Both the position numbers and the translations under genes were made by a program. DNA of 64,000 bases from Cyclobacteriaceae bacterium (GTDB lineage: Bacteria > Bacteroidota > Bacteroidia > Cytophagales > Cyclobacteriaceae), in NCBI GenBank assembly GCA_019638395.1, contig JAHBTX010000004.1:186001-250000 (forward strand), written 5' to 3'. Below are positions 571 to 6,925 of this stretch, piece after piece (within the stretch, counting starts at the first letter, position 1; each line of letters starts with the position of its first letter). The notes beneath the pieces were generated by a model. It searched no databases and was not told the DNA's origin. It saw only the letters and a program-made list of their open reading frames with translations.

Positions 571-861
571 TTAGTCCACATCAACAATGCGTTCGCTAAG
601 CTCCAGGTAATGATCGCTGCCTGCTGTGTAGTTTGCATATTCTACTTCAATTAGCTTTTCCAATTGATGTTTTACTTTTTCCATCATATCGGGTGTAGTG
701 TGCAGTAACAATACAGCACCACCTTTGCGAAAATCGTTTTCGTTTTCGTGGGCCATTAGTTTTTTTATACGGACACGTCTGCGGTTAAGTACATTAACAA
801 TCCGATTAAGGATAGAGAAGTTGTTTTCGGCTACGAGTTCTAAGGTATAATCTTGTTTCAT
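571..861 (-). CDS. ilvN: Acetolactate synthase regulatory (small) subunit, ACT-domain only
   Basis: Regulatory partner of the acetolactate synthase large subunit encoded just upstream; ACT domains of this family bind branched-chain amino acids and mediate feedback control. The 96 residues form essentially one ACT domain: strand 1 YTLELVAENN, a helix with ILNRIVNVLNRRRV, and a second half with KVKHQLEKLIEVEYA. Usual IlvN/IlvH proteins are about 160-180 residues with a second C-terminal domain, which is absent here, so the size is closer to the enterobacterial IlvM type. It sits 60 bp after ilvB and before ilvC. The start MKQDYTLEL is preceded by a CCAG-rich repeat also seen before ilvD. The ilvN label follows position and fold; ilvM would be equally defensible. 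Confidence 0.82.
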   Translation of the reverse strand: MKQDYTLELVAENNFSILNRIVNVLNRRRVRIKKLMAHENENDFRKGGAVLLLHTTPDMMEKVKHQLEKLIEVEYANYTAGSDHYLELSERIVDVD

Positions 862-921: not shown

Positions 922-2667
922 CTACTTCGGTATTTCGAGTATCACTTCTGCTACGCCAGCTCCGGCCGGTACCATCGGGAATACGTTATCTTCTTTTTCT
1001 ACTACTACTTCCAAAAAATACGAAGTTTCTGCAGCGAGCATTTTCTTTAGTTCAGCCTCCAAGTTTTTTTGTTCTGTAACTTTTGCCGCGGGTATGCGGT
1101 ACGCTTCAGCAATTTTTACAAAATCAGGATTCTGCATTTCGGTAAACGAATAGCGTTTGCCATGAAAGAGTTGTTGCCACTGGCGCACCATGCCCAGAAA
1201 ATTATTATTCAATACCAGAATTTTTACTTGAATGTTGTACTGCATAATGGTTCCTAATTCTTGAACCGTCATCTGATAACCGCCATCGCCAATTACAGCT
1301 ACTACTTGTTGTTCTGGTGCCGCTACTTTTGCACCCATCGCTGCTGGTAATGCAAAACCCATGGTACCCGCACCGCCAGAGGTAATATTGGTACGGGGAT
1401 TTTTATATTGGTAATAGCGCGAAGTTACCATCTGATGCTGACCAACATCGGTAACTACTACTGCCTCGCCTTTGGTAAGCTCCGAAAGCATGTAAATCAC
1501 TTCGGCCATTTTTAGGCTTGCGGTGTTTTTGATTTCTTTTGCCACTACTTTTTCAAACTCTTCCTGATTAAGTTTTCGAAAACTTTCAATCCATTCCGCA
1601 AAGGAATTTTTTACACACAATTTGGTTAATGCGCTTAATGCTTCTTTTGCATCCGCATGCACATAAACTGTAGGCGTGATGATCTTGTTGATCTCGGCTT
1701 TATCGATATCAATATGAATAACCTTTGCTTGCTTGGCATACTTGCTTACGTTTCCGGTAACGCGATCGTCAAATCGCATCCCCACCGCAATCAACACATC
1801 ACATTCATTGGTATTAATGTTTGGTCCGTAGTTACCATGCATACCCAGGTAGCCTACATAATTCGGGTGATCAGACGAAAGCGCACCCAATCCCAACAAA
1901 GTACTTGCTACAGGAATTCCTGTTTTTTCAACAAAGGTTTTTAATTCATTGCTGGCTCCGGATAGCAGCACACCTTGACCTACTAACAGGTAAGGCTTCT
2001 TAGCCTGATTGATGAGCGCAGCAGCAGCTTCAATTTGTTCAACCTGAAGCACAGGCTTGGGTTTGTACGTGCGCACGGTGTGGCATGCTTCGTATTCAAA
2101 CTCTTCAATCAATTCGTTTTGTGCATTCTTGGTAATGTCAACCAACACAGGTCCTGGTCTTCCGCTTGCCGCGATGTAAAATGCTTTCGCGATGGCAGGA
2201 GCAATGTCTTTTGCTTCTGTTACTTGTACATTCCATTTCGTAACGGGTAATGTTGTGTTAATTACATCGGTTTCCTGAAAAGCATCGGTACCCAGCAAAT
2301 GGGCAAACACCTGACCGGTAACACAGACAACCGGAGTGGAGTCAATCAGGGCATCGGCCAAGCCAGTGACCAGGTTAGTCGCACCCGGACCTGACGTTGC
2401 AAACACGACCCCGGTTTTACCTGACACGCGGGCATAACCTTGCGCAGCATGTATGGCACCTTGTTCGTGGCGAACAAGCAGGTGAGTAAGTTTATCCGCA
2501 TAGTGATAGAGCGCATCATATACTGGCATGATGGCACCACCCGGATAACCAAAAATGTGTTCTACTTTTTCAGCGACCAGGCAACGCAACAAAGCTTCTG
2601 AGCCTGTAATTTTGGTTGTGGTTTTAACTGCTTCCGCCTCTTGTTTTTCGATCTTAGTTGCTACCAT
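922..2667 (-). CDS. ilvB: Acetolactate synthase, large catalytic subunit
   Basis: Thiamine diphosphate enzyme that condenses two pyruvates, or pyruvate with 2-oxobutyrate, as the first common step of valine, leucine and isoleucine synthesis. At 581 residues the length is typical. The catalytic glutamate lies in VRHEQGAIHAAQG (about E68). The ThDP/Mg motif starts GDGGYQMT at about 460 and runs to the NNNF element near 488. The N-terminal 20 residues are a charged extension before the conserved start of the fold. It lies between ilvD (58 bp upstream) and the ACT subunit (60 bp downstream), as expected for a catalytic/regulatory pair. Confidence is high because both cofactor motifs and the pathway context agree. 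Confidence 0.96.
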   Translation of the reverse strand: MVATKIEKQEAEAVKTTTKITGSEALLRCLVAEKVEHIFGYPGGAIMPVYDALYHYADKLTHLLVRHEQGAIHAAQGYARVSGKTGVVFATSGPGATNLVTGLADALIDSTPVVCVTGQVFAHLLGTDAFQETDVINTTLPVTKWNVQVTEAKDIAPAIAKAFYIAASGRPGPVLVDITKNAQNELIEEFEYEACHTVRTYKPKPVLQVEQIEAAAALINQAKKPYLLVGQGVLLSGASNELKTFVEKTGIPVASTLLGLGALSSDHPNYVGYLGMHGNYGPNINTNECDVLIAVGMRFDDRVTGNVSKYAKQAKVIHIDIDKAEINKIITPTVYVHADAKEALSALTKLCVKNSFAEWIESFRKLNQEEFEKVVAKEIKNTASLKMAEVIYMLSELTKGEAVVVTDVGQHQMVTSRYYQYKNPRTNITSGGAGTMGFALPAAMGAKVAAPEQQVVAVIGDGGYQMTVQELGTIMQYNIQVKILVLNNNFLGMVRQWQQLFHGKRYSFTEMQNPDFVKIAEAYRIPAAKVTEQKNLEAELKKMLAAETSYFLEVVVEKEDNVFPMVPAGAGVAEVILEIPK

Positions 2668-2725: not shown

Positions 2726-4405
2726 TTATTCTTCATCCGTAACGCATCCGTCCGCAGCAGTTTTTACATGTTGGGCATATTTATAAAGCACACCACTCTT
2801 TACCCGCAATGCCGGAGCTTTGTAGTGCGATTTCCGGATCGCAATTGTTTTTTCATCTACCAATAAATTGATCGTGTGTTTTTTTACATCGATCTCAATC
2901 CAATCGCCATCTTCAATAAGTGAAAGCAATCCGCCATCAAATGCTTCGGGTGTGATATGACCAATTACAAATCCGTGCGAGCCACCTGAAAATCTTCCAT
3001 CGGTAATTAGAGCCACACTTTTACCAAGACCAGAACCCATAATTAAACTGGTAGGCTTTAACATTTCTGGCATACCCGGAGCGCCCTTCGGGCCAACGTA
3101 GCGAATCACCACTACATCGCCTTCTTTTATTCTTCCGGATTTAATACCATCTACCAATTCAAACTCACCATTAAACACGCGCGCAGTTCCTTTAAAGCGT
3201 TCGCCCTCTTTGCCCGTGATTTTTGCAACCGATCCTTGCGGAGCCAGATTACCATAGAGTATCTGCAAGTGCCCGGTTTTCTTAATAGGTTTTTCAAACG
3301 GCAGAATTACGTCTTGCTTTTCGAAGTCGAGGTCTTTGGCGTTGGCAACATTTTCGGCTAATGTTTTTCCGGTAACGGTTAAGCAATCCCCATGGATGTA
3401 ACCCTTGCTTAATAAATATTTGATTACTGAGGGCACGCCACCAATTTTGTGTAAAGCCTCCATTAAATATTTACCGCTGGGTTTTAAATCGGCAATAAGC
3501 GGAGTTTTATCAGAGATGCGTTGAAAATCTTCTTGGGTGAGTTTAAGTCCTACGCTTTTTGCCATCGCAATTAAATGCAACACGGCATTGGTAGATCCGC
3601 CTAACACCATCACAATCGTAATTGCATTTTCAAATGCTTTAAACGTCATGATGTCGCGCGGCTTAATGTCTTTTTCCAACAACAACCGTATGGCTTTAGC
3701 GGCTTCGGTACACTCGGCCGATTTTTCTTTACTTAAAGCTGGGTTGGAAGATGAATAAGGCAACGCCATACCCAATGCTTCGATAGCGGATGCCATGGTG
3801 TTAGCTGTGTACATGCCACCACACGCACCGGCACCCGGACAGGAATTTTGAATAATGCCTTTATAATCTTCATCGGAAAGTTTGCCTTGAATTTTTTCGC
3901 CCAGCGCTTCAAATGAAGATATGATGTTTAACTCGCGGCCTTTGTAATGACCACCGGCAATAGTACCGCCATACACCATAATAGCTGGACGGTTTAATCG
4001 GCCCATCGCGATAAGCGAGCCCGGCATATTTTTATCGCACCCTACAACAGCAATCAATCCATCGTAATATTGTGCACCGCAAACTGTTTCAATTGAGTCG
4101 GCAATTACTTCGCGGCTTACTAATGAGTAGCGCATGCCTTCTGTGCCATTGGCAATGCCATCGCTTACGCCAATGGTATTAAAAATCAAACCCACCAGTT
4201 CCTGATCCCACACGGCTTGTTTTACTTCACCAGCCAATGCATTGAGGTGCATGTTGCAAGTGTTGCCATCGTAACCAGTACTTACAATACCAACTTGTGC
4301 TTTTTTAAGGTCGTGCTCTGTTAAGCCAATTCCATACAACATGGCCTGCGATGCGGGCAGCGTAGGGTCTTGGGTGATTGTCTTACTATATTTATTGAGT
4401 TCCAT
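2726..4405 (-). CDS. ilvD: Dihydroxy-acid dehydratase
   Basis: Iron-sulfur enzyme that dehydrates the dihydroxy acids to the 2-oxo acids, the step before transamination. At 559 residues it matches the family. The three expected cluster-ligand cysteines are visible: C50 (DGNTCNMH), C123 (VGCDKNMPG) and C195 (GAGACGGMY). The C-terminal part carries the SDGRFSGG-like signature as [12 protein letters not shown]. It lies between ilvE and ilvB on the same strand. The start codon is directly preceded by a 14-bp tandem repeat, so the translation initiation region of this gene is made of repeat units. No lesions seen. Confidence 0.96.
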
Positions 4406-4489: not shown

Positions 4490-5377
4490 TTAAACAATTA
4501 CGTACGAATAACTCTTATCCAACACAATACATTTGTAAGCCTCTTGCACTACTGCACCCATGGATTGTTTCCAGGGTTTGGCAAAGGGTTGCCCTTCGAT
4601 TGATTCAATGGCTACTACTTCGGCAGCTGTACCGCAGAAGAAGGCGCTGTCAGCTTCAAACAATTCTTCGGGACGGAAAAACTTTTCTACTACCGGCAAA
4701 TCCATCTCGCGACAGATTTCAAAAACAGTTTGGCGGGTAATACCAGGAAGAATGTTTCCAAGTGGAGGCGTGTAAAGCACACCATCCTTTTCAAAAAAGA
4801 AATTGGCTCCGGGCCCTTCCGCCACGAAGCCATTTATGTCAAGCATCAATGCTTCATCAAAGCCACGTTGTTTCGCTTCGTTGGTAGCCATGATGGAGTT
4901 TACATAATGACCACACACCTTGGCTTCCATTTTTACCGATTTCGGATTAGGTCGTTGGAAAGAAGACACACAAACCTTTAGAGATTGATGGCTGTGGTAT
5001 TTACCCCATTCCCATGCGGATATCATTACTGATACCCCGGTGGGTGCCGATAAGGTCATATTAGGAGCGCAATAAACCAGTGGGCGGATGTAGGCATCTT
5101 TCAGATTATTTTTTTCCAACACCTGGTAGGAGAGTTGGGTTAGTTCTTCGGTAGAATAGTTGAACGGAATACCCACCAGTTCACAGCTGCGCTGAAGTCG
5201 TGCAAAGTGTTCGTGAGGTTTAAAAATTTTTACGCCATTTATTGTTTGATAGGCGCGAATGCCTTCGAAGACACCATAACCATAGTGCAAGGTTTGACTG
5301 TATAAATCGGTGGCGGCATCTTTTGCCTTTACAAATTTTCCATCGTGGAAGATGATGGTGCTGTCGGTGTAGTACAT
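4490..5377 (-). CDS. ilvE: Branched-chain amino acid aminotransferase
   Basis: PLP fold-type IV transaminase that makes Val, Leu and Ile from their oxo acids with glutamate. From the chosen start MYYTDSTIIFHDG it is 295 residues, normal for the family. Conserved elements are LHYGYGVFEGIRAY (about 30-43), the PLP lysine in KMEAKVCGHY (about K153), and the EGPGANFFF loop near 190. A longer reading frame starts at 5425, but that start would lie inside the terminator hairpin upstream, so the internal ATG at 5377 is preferred. It is the first structural gene of the operon and directly follows the attenuator, so it and all genes after it should be under that control. Confidence 0.93.
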   Translation of the reverse strand: MYYTDSTIIFHDGKFVKAKDAATDLYSQTLHYGYGVFEGIRAYQTINGVKIFKPHEHFARLQRSCELVGIPFNYSTEELTQLSYQVLEKNNLKDAYIRPLVYCAPNMTLSAPTGVSVMISAWEWGKYHSHQSLKVCVSSFQRPNPKSVKMEAKVCGHYVNSIMATNEAKQRGFDEALMLDINGFVAEGPGANFFFEKDGVLYTPPLGNILPGITRQTVFEICREMDLPVVEKFFRPEELFEADSAFFCGTAAEVVAIESIEGQPFAKPWKQSMGAVVQEAYKCIVLDKSYSYVIV

Positions 5378-5411
5378 AAGGTAGTTTAGAACAATCGTTA
5401 GTTTGCGGTTA

Positions 5412-5453
5412 ATACTATAAAACAAAACCGTCCTGCTTGGGGCGGGACGGTTT
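5412..5453 (-). terminator. Intrinsic terminator of the ilv leader (attenuator)
   Basis: On the minus strand the transcript would form a stem AAACCGTCC / GGACGGTTT (5445-5453 with 5425-5433), extended by two more pairs past one mismatch, with a 5-nt loop. It is followed by a T-rich run (TTTTGTTTTAT). It lies between the leader ORF stop and ilvE. A GCCCC in its loop side (5439-5443) can instead pair with GGGGC at 5480-5484, giving a possible antiterminator. Confidence 0.8.
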
Positions 5454-5474
5454 CAATATCTTTTTACAATATCG

Positions 5475-5573
5475 CTACAGCCCCGGTTTTCGGAGAATAA
5501 TGACATTGAGCACGAGCACACGGATTACTGCCAGCGTGCGATTGATTTGATTCATGTTGTTTATTAGACTCAT
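5475..5573 (-). CDS. Putative leader peptide of the ilv operon, rich in Leu/Ile/Val
   Basis: Short ORF of 32 codons (start ATG at 5573; alternative ATG at 5555 gives 26). About 15 of the 32 residues are branched-chain, and the stretch LAVIRVLVLNVIIL has 11 of 14. The stop lies 21 nt before the terminator hairpin that precedes ilvE. This is the architecture of the E. coli ilv and leu attenuators: a ribosome stalling at Ile/Val/Leu codons would free the GGGGC segment near the stop codon to pair with the loop of the terminator, while a ribosome at the stop would cover it. The frame stays open further upstream, but that part overlaps the neighbouring ATPase gene and shows no such bias. The role is inferred, not proven. 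Confidence 0.75.
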   Translation of the reverse strand: MSLINNMNQINRTLAVIRVLVLNVIILRKPGL

Positions 5574-5597
5574 AATCTTGTGCGTGAGTACAAGATT
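5574..5597. promoter_or_regulatory. 8-bp inverted repeat just upstream of the ilv leader ORF
   Basis: Perfect arms AATCTTGT (5574-5581) and ACAAGATT (5590-5597) with an 8-nt spacer, ending one base before the leader ATG at 5573. It could be a 5' RNA hairpin of the leader transcript or a protein binding site. No clear TAnnTTTG promoter element was found next to it. Confidence 0.5.
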
Positions 5598-5673
5598 CAA
5601 AAATTTTGTAATGAGTTTCAACGAAACCGAGATAAAAAGTTTCAGAAAATGACTATAACGAATGTTAGGTGGG

Positions 5674-6858
5674 TCAAAAGATATTTCCACCCCAAACAAA
5701 ATCCGAGTATTGACCGGGTGTATTTCCCACCAATATTGTTTTGCTAAGGTTAGCAATTTTTGATCTTGTCTTAAGTGCAGCATGATCCGGTTGAGTAGGA
5801 GTTGTTTTTATTTCGATGGCTGTATTCTCTTTCCAAACCAAATCTATTTCCTGGCCCGATTTCTTCTGATAAAAATGAGTTTCGCCTCCCAACCGCTTGA
5901 ATTGATTAATGACTGAATTTTCAAAAAGCTTTCCTATTGGCACATCGCCTGTCAAACTTAATAAACCTGAATCCGAAAAATAGTATTTAGCCTGCTGGCT
6001 TATTTCTTTGTCCACGTTGTTTGTATATGGAGCGAGTTTTACCAGGAAGTAGGTTTGTTCAAACAGGTTGAGATAATTGGTAACTTTGTTTCTATTTAAC
6101 CCAGCTACCGAAGCAAGTTTACTGATGTCAAGTTTGCTACCCACCCGGGTGCCCAAGAGCCGGATAAGTTTATAAAGTTCATCATTTAAGGAATAGTCGG
6201 AAAGAATTTTTACATCCATGTCGATGTATGCATTCAGAATATCCTCCAGCATTCCAACTTTAGAGATTCGTTTATCCATAAGTGTTACTTCTGGAAATCC
6301 ACCGAACTTCAAAAAATCATCGTAATGCTTTTTATATTGGATATAAAAAGCTTCGTTGAACTTTTTCAGGCTGAATTTTTGATAAGCTTTTTCCTCAAAG
6401 CCTTTGAACCTCAGATATTCACTAAAAGTAAGCGGATGTAAGTCGAAGATTTTTTTCCGGCCAGCCAAACTTTCTGAGAACCGGTTCTTCAGGTAAAATG
6501 AACTTGAGCCGGTAACTATAAATTTTACATTGTATGTGTCATACCAATATTTAATAACACTTACTATTTCAGGGAGTAGTTGAATTTCGTCTAACGCGAT
6601 AGTACACTTTTTTGTAAAATCAAGACCCCGCACTTCAAGAAATTGTTCCATTTCCTGGTAGGTAGCTTGCTTAAAGATCAACCGGTTTTCTATCCGCTCC
6701 AGATCCAGATAAATTTTATTCCTTCCGGGAATCAAATCCAGCAATGCCTTTACCAGAGTTGATTTACCAACCCTGCGCATGCCGGTGATTACCGTAGCCG
6801 ACCGTTCTTTCAGGTGGCTGGTGAGCGTTGTAAATAAATCTCTTTTGAAGGGAGTCAT
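5674..6858 (-). CDS. AAA-type ATPase with C-terminal DUF4143 domain
   Basis: Member of the AAA_14/DUF4143 family, widespread stand-alone ATPases of unknown cellular role. From MTPFKRDLF it is 394 residues, typical for the family. Walker A is GMRRVGKST at about 26-34 and Walker B is IALDEIQLL (D90, E91). The C-terminal part contains EIDLVW followed by AIEIKTT (about 337-353), the pattern of a restriction-endonuclease-like fold. A longer frame reaches 6915, but those extra 19 codons run through palindromic DNA, so the ATG at 6858 is preferred. The gene ends about 100 bp upstream of the ilv leader ORF. The palindromes before it suggest its own regulation. Function in this cell is unknown. Confidence 0.8.
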   Translation of the reverse strand: MTPFKRDLFTTLTSHLKERSATVITGMRRVGKSTLVKALLDLIPGRNKIYLDLERIENRLIFKQATYQEMEQFLEVRGLDFTKKCTIALDEIQLLPEIVSVIKYWYDTYNVKFIVTGSSSFYLKNRFSESLAGRKKIFDLHPLTFSEYLRFKGFEEKAYQKFSLKKFNEAFYIQYKKHYDDFLKFGGFPEVTLMDKRISKVGMLEDILNAYIDMDVKILSDYSLNDELYKLIRLLGTRVGSKLDISKLASVAGLNRNKVTNYLNLFEQTYFLVKLAPYTNNVDKEISQQAKYYFSDSGLLSLTGDVPIGKLFENSVINQFKRLGGETHFYQKKSGQEIDLVWKENTAIEIKTTPTQPDHAALKTRSKIANLSKTILVGNTPGQYSDFVWGGNIF

Positions 6859-6861
6859 AAC

Positions 6862-6921
6862 TTTGTGCACAAATATAGTGCATAAAGTATAACTATTTGC
6901 ACAAATTTTGTGCAAATAGTT
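6862..6921. promoter_or_regulatory. Cluster of palindromes upstream of the DUF4143 ATPase
   Basis: Two perfect palindromes fill the 67-bp gap: TTTGTGCACAAA at 6862-6873 and a 31-bp one at 6891-6921 with 15-bp arms (AACTATTTGCACAAA and its complement). Both share the core TTTGTGCA/TGCACAAA, and a further half-like TAGTGCATAAA lies between. Shared half-sites suggest operators for one regulator. The larger one could also form a hairpin after the aminotransferase gene, but no T-run follows it. Confidence 0.55.
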
Positions 6922-6925
6922 AAGT

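Follow-up and report, generated by a model that had tools for sequence, protein, structure and literature searches.

In the ilv and leu attenuators of enterobacteria, a leader peptide rich in leucine, isoleucine and valine precedes a terminator that stands before the first structural gene, and the leader RNA can adopt three pairings, 1:2, 2:3 and 3:4. Leader-peptide attenuation requires a ribosome close behind the polymerase. Elongation can also be stopped by repressor roadblocks, as with CodY in Bacillus: a protein bound to the DNA downstream of the promoter stops the polymerase, whose RNA end then lies about 14 nt short of the protein's site. A comparative study of attenuators from 2004 reportedly touched on the Bacteroidetes. 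The covered portion of a paper on Flavobacterium psychrophilum finds strong clues to leader peptide attenuation ahead of operons for amino-acid biosynthesis, describes flavobacteria as being without Shine-Dalgarno sequences and gives TAnnTTTG as the Bacteroidota-type -7 box; the term "ilv" has 0 occurrences in its main text (PMC9723704). Short ORFs reminiscent of leader peptides are mentioned for Bacteroidota in the covered portion of a further paper (PMC7366714). An open-literature search for a terminator-operator ruler or a Cytophagales ilv leader peptide yielded none among the matches listed.

Here we describe the region ahead of ilvE in a member of the Cyclobacteriaceae. The window is the whole stretch of DNA that was analysed, 64,000 nt in length (GCA_019638395.1, contig JAHBTX010000004.1, positions 186,001 to 250,000), and positions are those of the window. 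An initial annotation, made from the sequence alone, had proposed a leader-peptide attenuator at this place.

Materials and Methods

Some match for the ilvE locus was obtained in 56 of 58 genomes; the best 30 places were taken (the window's genome included) together with nine named loci, and removal of five duplicates from these 39 left 34 ilvE upstream regions, which were aligned. The 33-row alignment A1 omits L030, which is without an accepted leader. Leaders were accepted under common criteria: 9-45 codons, at least six Leu/Ile/Val codons and 33% Leu/Ile/Val, and a stop no more than 75 nt from the hairpin. In the class search, the ilvD regions of 20 out of 27 places were scanned.

The pairing tests were run on a set of 67 leaders, from which seven loci had been removed by hand (L030, L158, L161, L162, L163, L165 and L166), along with nine more peptides judged to fall within coding sequence or not to be the ilv leader; L129 was left out as a duplicate of L039. 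L131, which belongs to the same genus, is counted among the 26 leaders of the group "family", and L175, which belongs to the same family, among the 8 of the group "class".

The Leader ORF and Its Operon

The features of the region are collected in Table 1. As initially annotated, the region heads an ilv operon, in which ilvE, ilvD and ilvB are followed by an ORF without an NCBIfam match at 1e-15 that we take to be ilvN from its position. Beyond the window edge, ilvC and ilvA continue the operon, and a leuC-leuD-leuB-leuA cluster lies about 3 kb past ilvA; all of the named genes except the ilvN-like ORF score above their NCBIfam cutoffs. The window sits within an 827-kb contig, and the nearest named relatives of its genome are Cyclobacteriaceae/Cytophagales metagenome genomes (nine loci, ilvE identity 71-96%). 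On the upstream side, the same strand carries an AAA/DUF4143 ATPase gene whose end, at 5674, is about 220 nt from the hairpin; a 15-bp inverted repeat with a 3-nt loop (6890-6922) adjoins this gene.

Table 1. Features at the head of the ilv operon, in window positions
Feature	Position	Strand	Basis
ilvN-like small subunit	571..861	-	position
ilvB, acetolactate synthase large subunit	922..2667	-	NCBIfam acolac_lg, above cutoff
ilvD	2726..4405	-	NCBIfam ilvD, above cutoff
ilvE, first structural gene	4490..5377	-	NCBIfam branched-chain amino acid transaminase, above cutoff
Downstream operator-like element CAAACTAACGATTGTT	5390..5405	-	motif searches; 17 nt from TTTT-run start
Interrupted U-tract (T G TTTT ATA)	5416..5424	-	sequence; tract comparison; T-run spacing
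Intrinsic terminator hairpin, one C-A mismatch in the window's genome	5425..5453	-	folding; inverted repeat I3; covariation
Segment 3, GUCCCG in terminator 5' arm, antiterminator 3' side, conserved register	5443..5448	-	shuffle test; pair counts
Leader peptide ORF, 32 codons, 15 Leu/Ile/Val	5475..5573	-	translation; kept in relatives; frame test
Segment 2, CGGGGC at leader ORF end, antiterminator 5' side	5480..5485	-	shuffle test; pair counts
Segment 1, last regulatory codons; pairs with leader end as pause/protector hairpin	5491..5508	-	minimum-energy fold; CUCCG:CGGGG pair counts
Candidate Bacteroidota-type promoter TTGAA ... AATCTTG	5591..5621	-	by eye, alignment
Upstream operator-like element ACCTAACATTCGTTAT, 62 nt before -7-like CTTG	5655..5670	-	motif pattern, spacing

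The leader ORF translates on the minus strand as MSLINNMNQINRTLAVIRVLVLNVIILRKPGL, followed by the stop, and 11 of 14 codons within LAVIRVLVLNVIIL specify Leu, Ile or Val. Its stop is separated from the hairpin by 21 nt. The initial description had given the same codon counts and the same spacing, and both agree with the translation. Of 2000 dinucleotide shuffles of the leader region, one yielded an ORF with 15 or more Leu/Ile/Val codons, and the enrichment of end-product codons in a short ORF, seen here in the translation and the shuffles, recurs in 48 of 49 ilvE sites. Across the 67 leaders, the Leu/Ile/Val fraction of the last 18 codons is 0.54 in frame as against 0.26 and 0.06 in the other frames; the in-frame fraction is the highest in 67/67 leaders, all of them preselected for Leu/Ile/Val content. 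The entire leader folds at -47.1 kcal/mol (z -3.3), a stability equalled by 0/200 shuffles.

Terminator and Alternative Pairings

The hairpin reads AAACCGUCCCGC-CCCAA-GCAGGACGGUUU and is followed by TGTTTTATAG. Folded by itself, the terminator part has a z of -2.9, with 1/200 shuffles as stable. A simple terminator scan, in which three terminator-like sites per 3 kb were found against 2.8 expected, had the hairpin on the plus strand only; it is absent from the minus-strand list because the one C-A mismatch breaks the stem. Despite that listing, both the fold and the covariation place an intrinsic terminator between the leader ORF and ilvE. In the alignment of the terminator stem, 98.1% of 363 cells are paired, and 18 stem cells are changed on both sides, a number matched by 0/500 shuffles, as were the paired cells and the covariation score. 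Pairs with double changes number four (matched by 19/500 shuffles), and the number of pair types was matched by 199/500. The hairpin and T-rich run first noted before ilvE are thus present, with compensatory changes in the stem.

An antiterminator overlaps the leader end and the terminator arm and is exclusive with the terminator. It pairs CGGGGC with GUCCCG (GYCCCG in the alignment), with 91.9% of 198 cells paired, as against at most 52% when the columns are slid. Double changes are confined to four cells (2/500 shuffles) in two pairs (94/500 shuffles). This 2:3 pairing is short in the window, 6 bp in the conserved register including one G-U; the pairing of leader end and terminator arm is worth -13.8 kcal/mol against -7.5 kcal/mol in shuffled sequence, a value reached by 0/200 shuffles. 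The initial annotation had paired GGGGC (5484-5480) with GCCCC (5443-5439). Both motifs are there, but their register is not conserved, since it needs loop sequence that most aligned relatives lack, and it was replaced by CGGGGC:GUCCCG.

The pairing of leader end with terminator arm could also be assessed free of the alignment, and it beats mononucleotide shuffles of the same leader (p<0.05) in 53/67 cases: 24/33 in the genus, 23/26 in the family and 6/8 in the class, with mean energies of -15.2, -16.7 and -13.0 kcal/mol against shuffled means of -7.8, -8.5 and -6.3 kcal/mol, respectively. The test was not passed by 14 leaders, nine of them in the genus set (L002, L004, L006, L010, L012, L014, L020, L025, L026, L146, L148, L159, and one of two each in L152 and L167). 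A cross-locus control was weaker because related terminators have common sequence: a leader's own pairing was in the best 10% only in 12/33, 16/26 and 5/8 leaders of the three groups. The weakest of the three pairings is the 1:2 pause/protector hairpin over the control codons, CUCCG:CGGGG, with 83.6% of 165 cells paired and still 69.6% after a one-column slide. Judged on these comparisons, the leader ORF and its pairing before ilvE are not a chance occurrence.

Distribution of the Leader in Relatives

The common criteria accept a leader in 48/49 ilvE sites and in 10/37 leuC sites, the latter being the false-positive baseline, that is, what the criteria pass in such DNA. Relatives share the leader's C-terminal portion, which in the window reads ...VLVLNVIILRKPGL, together with the hairpin and the tract downstream of it; the N-terminal parts vary in sequence and length. 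In L030, the most divergent locus of the genus (ilvE 54% identical), no leader was recognisable by eye. The family search found ilvE at E <=1e-60 in 28 of 69 genomes, and a script detected leader and terminator in 24/27 family-search loci (one of them, L131, from the same genus); in L136 the script missed the leader, yet a Leu/Ile/Val-rich ORF is visible. In the class search, leaders were accepted in 6 of the 20 ilvD regions, five in other orders (L159, L164, L167, L170 and L174) and one in the same family (L175). Further true leaders may be present in L158, L161 and L169, and the class count is therefore conservative. Two leader peptides and two terminators are arranged in tandem before the ilv genes in L139, L152, L174 and perhaps L167.

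The conservation that had been set as a check on the initial annotation is thus found both for the Leu/Ile/Val-rich leader and for the two alternative stems, the terminator through its compensatory changes and the antiterminator through its excess over shuffles.

Operator-Like Elements at ilvE and leuC

Two operator-like elements flank the leader, an observation additional to the initial annotation. The downstream one, CAAACTAACGATTGTT, sits between the terminator and ilvE. The pattern CWAACTAACRNTTGTT, derived from the same genus as was searched, has 83 matches in 46/58 genus genomes, often two per genome, as against nine for the reversed pattern. The 82 distinct sites lie before ilvE (44), before leuC (36) or before other genes (two, L058 and L099), so that with this genus-derived pattern 80/82 distinct sites of a motif recurring above background are at ilvE or leuC. 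A looser pattern, with loci fetched via ilvE added, gave 87 sites, of which 49 belong to ilvE, one to another gene and 37 to leuC, where one of the two rows of L117 is an upstream copy.

At ilvE, the element lies 17 nt past the T-run start in 45/49 sites, 16 nt past it in two and 6 nt past it in one, one site being without a run; the spacing between element and ilvE start codon is variable, 2 to 17 nt. At leuC, the 17-nt spacing is found in 29/37 sites, with other values in four and no run in four. With the hairpin's outermost G-C pair as the reference point, the element lies at 22 nt in 45/49 ilvE sites and at 16-24 nt in leuC, with outliers at 48 and 63. Given that the sequences are related, the fixed spacing could be partly inherited. 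Within the first 12 nt after the stem, the longest T run is exactly four in 38/38 leaders with the element and 5-9 in 28/29 leaders without it (three in the remaining one), a contrast that does not represent independent events because the element-bearing sequences are one group of relatives.

Most leuC sites have the hairpin, the T run and the 16-bp element at its 17-nt spacing and lack a comparable leader peptide; in the window's genome the leuC site is L043/L051 (contig C22, about 181179-181260). The leuC hairpins differ in sequence, and a -7-like box is recognisable at 33 sites. In 20 of these the hairpin starts 10-23 nt after the box, too close to accommodate a leader peptide; in the other 13, the window's genome included, the interval is 53-60 nt. 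The long-leader leuC sites (L043, L082, L084, L090, L092, L094, L105, L124 and others) have a conserved CCCAATAACCTAACCTAAACC before the hairpin, and several contain a mini ORF, ATG ATT ACC CAA TAA. In the leuC family search, the script found the element in the six loci nearest the window's, its own included (L176-L181), and it is absent from the other leuC family loci (29 of 30 loci read). A 14-base pattern was rejected as a sign of spread beyond the family: 77/241 order genomes match, but the reversed control matches many too.

A promoter-like sequence with conserved spacing is seen by eye in the alignment upstream of the leader; its TTG would be the -33 box. A sigma-70-type scan listed no minus-strand site by the leader. 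By pattern, a site related to the downstream element (ACCTAACATTCGTTA in the window) lies upstream of this candidate promoter in 41/49 ilvE sites. A stricter pattern retains 39 ilvE sites: in 37 of them the -7-like CTTG follows the end of the site by 59-64 nt, in one by 54 nt, and one is without a box. The leuC variant is AAACACTYGTAAG, and in the 23/37 sites where its spacing was measurable the -7-like box follows its end by 48-52 nt, a difference between the two operons of about one helical turn. No clear period was apparent in the spacing from upstream to downstream site, and the idea that this spacing is helically phased was dropped.

The short motif CTAACRNTYGTT is not enriched across the window's genome, where it matches 11 times and its reversed control 16 times. 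An acyl-CoA dehydrogenase-like gene is preceded by sites of the form CTAACNNNNGTTTG in 23 of the 27 genus loci that were readable among the 29 at L206-L234 (one with GTTCG; L225, L226, L231 and L233 are without an exact match); no NCBIfam model scores above cutoff for this gene. These sites suggest that the regulon may exceed ilv and leu. In the window's genome, CTAAC-N4-GTT sites close to the ilv/leu element lie by paaA and a TetR-type gene (L046:1501 and 2420), which suggests that a putative regulator at the ilv/leu element may be a TetR-type protein.

Discussion

As the initial annotation proposed, the region at 5412-5573 is, with high probability, a ribosome-mediated transcription attenuator of the ilvEDBN(CA) operon; leader conservation, stem covariation and antiterminator pairing argue for this reading, and the ORF, the terminator, both alternative pairings and their conservation are computational observations. 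The attenuator very probably turns the operon on under Leu/Ile/Val shortage. For its operation we infer a promoter, translation of the leader, stalling and readthrough. With charged Leu-, Ile- or Val-tRNA scarce, the ribosome would stall in the LAVIRVLVLNVIIL codons and cover segment 1, leaving CGGGGC free to pair with GUCCCG of the terminator 5' arm; this pairing would block the terminator, and the polymerase would continue into ilvE. When amino acids are ample, the ribosome would reach the leader stop and the terminator would form, as it also would on an untranslated leader, in which segments 1 and 2 would pair.

The position of the ATPase gene, on the same strand and ending shortly upstream, would suit an ordinary terminator of that gene accompanied by a chance hydrophobic ORF, but the conserved leader, the covarying stems and the constant position before ilvE make this very improbable. 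Hardly better placed is a riboswitch, a T-box or a protein-bound RNA leader instead of a ribosome sensor. The region is indeed structured (z -3.3) and the downstream element is also transcribed; against this, 0 of 4227 Rfam families match the leader at gathering score, the window has three tRNAs only, the leader ORF has its frame bias, and pairing between element and leader exceeds shuffles (p<0.05) in 0/49 ilvE and 1/37 leuC sites. We give somewhat more weight to the idea, unlikely as we consider it, that a DNA-binding regulator chiefly controls the terminator, with the leader peptide serving, in the genus, as an auxiliary or decaying input. The leuC sites speak for it, having retained the hairpin, the T run and the equally spaced element with no comparable leader peptide, as does the greater number of invariant columns in the element than in the leader; a decaying input, however, leaves unexplained that most ilvE leaders keep their ORF, frame bias and 2:3 pairing. 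The last alternative concerns the second layer only, namely that the downstream element serves the initiation of translation at ilvE and leuC and not transcription. Its place just upstream of the start codons, abutting that of leuC in 21/37 sites, fits such a role, but the distance to the ilvE start ranges from 2 to 17 nt where the T-run distance is fixed, and related sites lie upstream of candidate promoters; we think it improbable, if slightly less so than the preceding one.

Beside the ribosome-read attenuator, a DNA-binding regulator probably provides a second layer on ilv and leu. The putative protein would bind about 61 nt before the -7-like box and 17 nt past the T-run start, and the downstream-bound protein could press on a polymerase paused at the U-tract, raising termination; leuC would have the same two-site layout with no comparable leader peptide. 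More tentatively, the element-bound protein may be a roadblock to polymerase. Fourteen nucleotides counted from CTAAC would put the RNA end at the U-tract's end, a position from which the polymerase could be released by the hairpin. A broader scheme, which we offer with some reserve, is that the ilv and leu operons of this clade might use an operator-clamped terminator, with the same regulator setting initiation upstream and ilv adding a ribosome-read leader. The regulator, about one polymerase front-edge past a weak U-tract, would convert a pause to release, and the same protein at a helically phased upstream site would govern initiation; the ilv terminator would integrate tRNA charging and a metabolite signal, and the leu clamp would act alone. 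Similar sites at the acyl-CoA dehydrogenase-like gene raise the possibility that an acyl-CoA, or some other branched-chain intermediate, is the signal.

A conserved ilv leader makes transcription-translation coupling in Bacteroidota testable through a natural reporter. The fixed spacing between terminator and element suggests how an intrinsic terminator could come under the influence of a DNA-binding protein, and ilv and leu together constitute a natural experiment, one element with and without a leader peptide.

The enterobacterial ilv and leu attenuators resemble the window's in the Leu/Ile/Val-rich leader, the three pairings and the position of the terminator; the window's differs in having no Rfam match, in belonging to Bacteroidota, in its short interrupted U-tract and in its flanking operator-like elements. 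CodY-type roadblocks are alike in the proposed DNA-bound block, the window's candidate site being at a fixed distance from an intrinsic terminator. As far as the covered portions of the papers go, the Corynebacterium ilvB-II motif and ilvBNC attenuator also combine a short ilv-leader ORF with alternative hairpins, in Actinobacteria and with another gene order (PMC10272879, PMC11857589). The F. psychrophilum candidates belong to the same phylum, with no operator element in the portion of the text covered (PMC9723704), and the Bacteroid-trp RNA (RF01692) is, in the covered portion of its source, a cis-regulatory RNA of Bacteroidetes linked by name to trp (PMC2864571) and is unmatched in the window. 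The attenuation mechanism itself is therefore known, and what is new is its combination with an operator-like element at fixed spacing.
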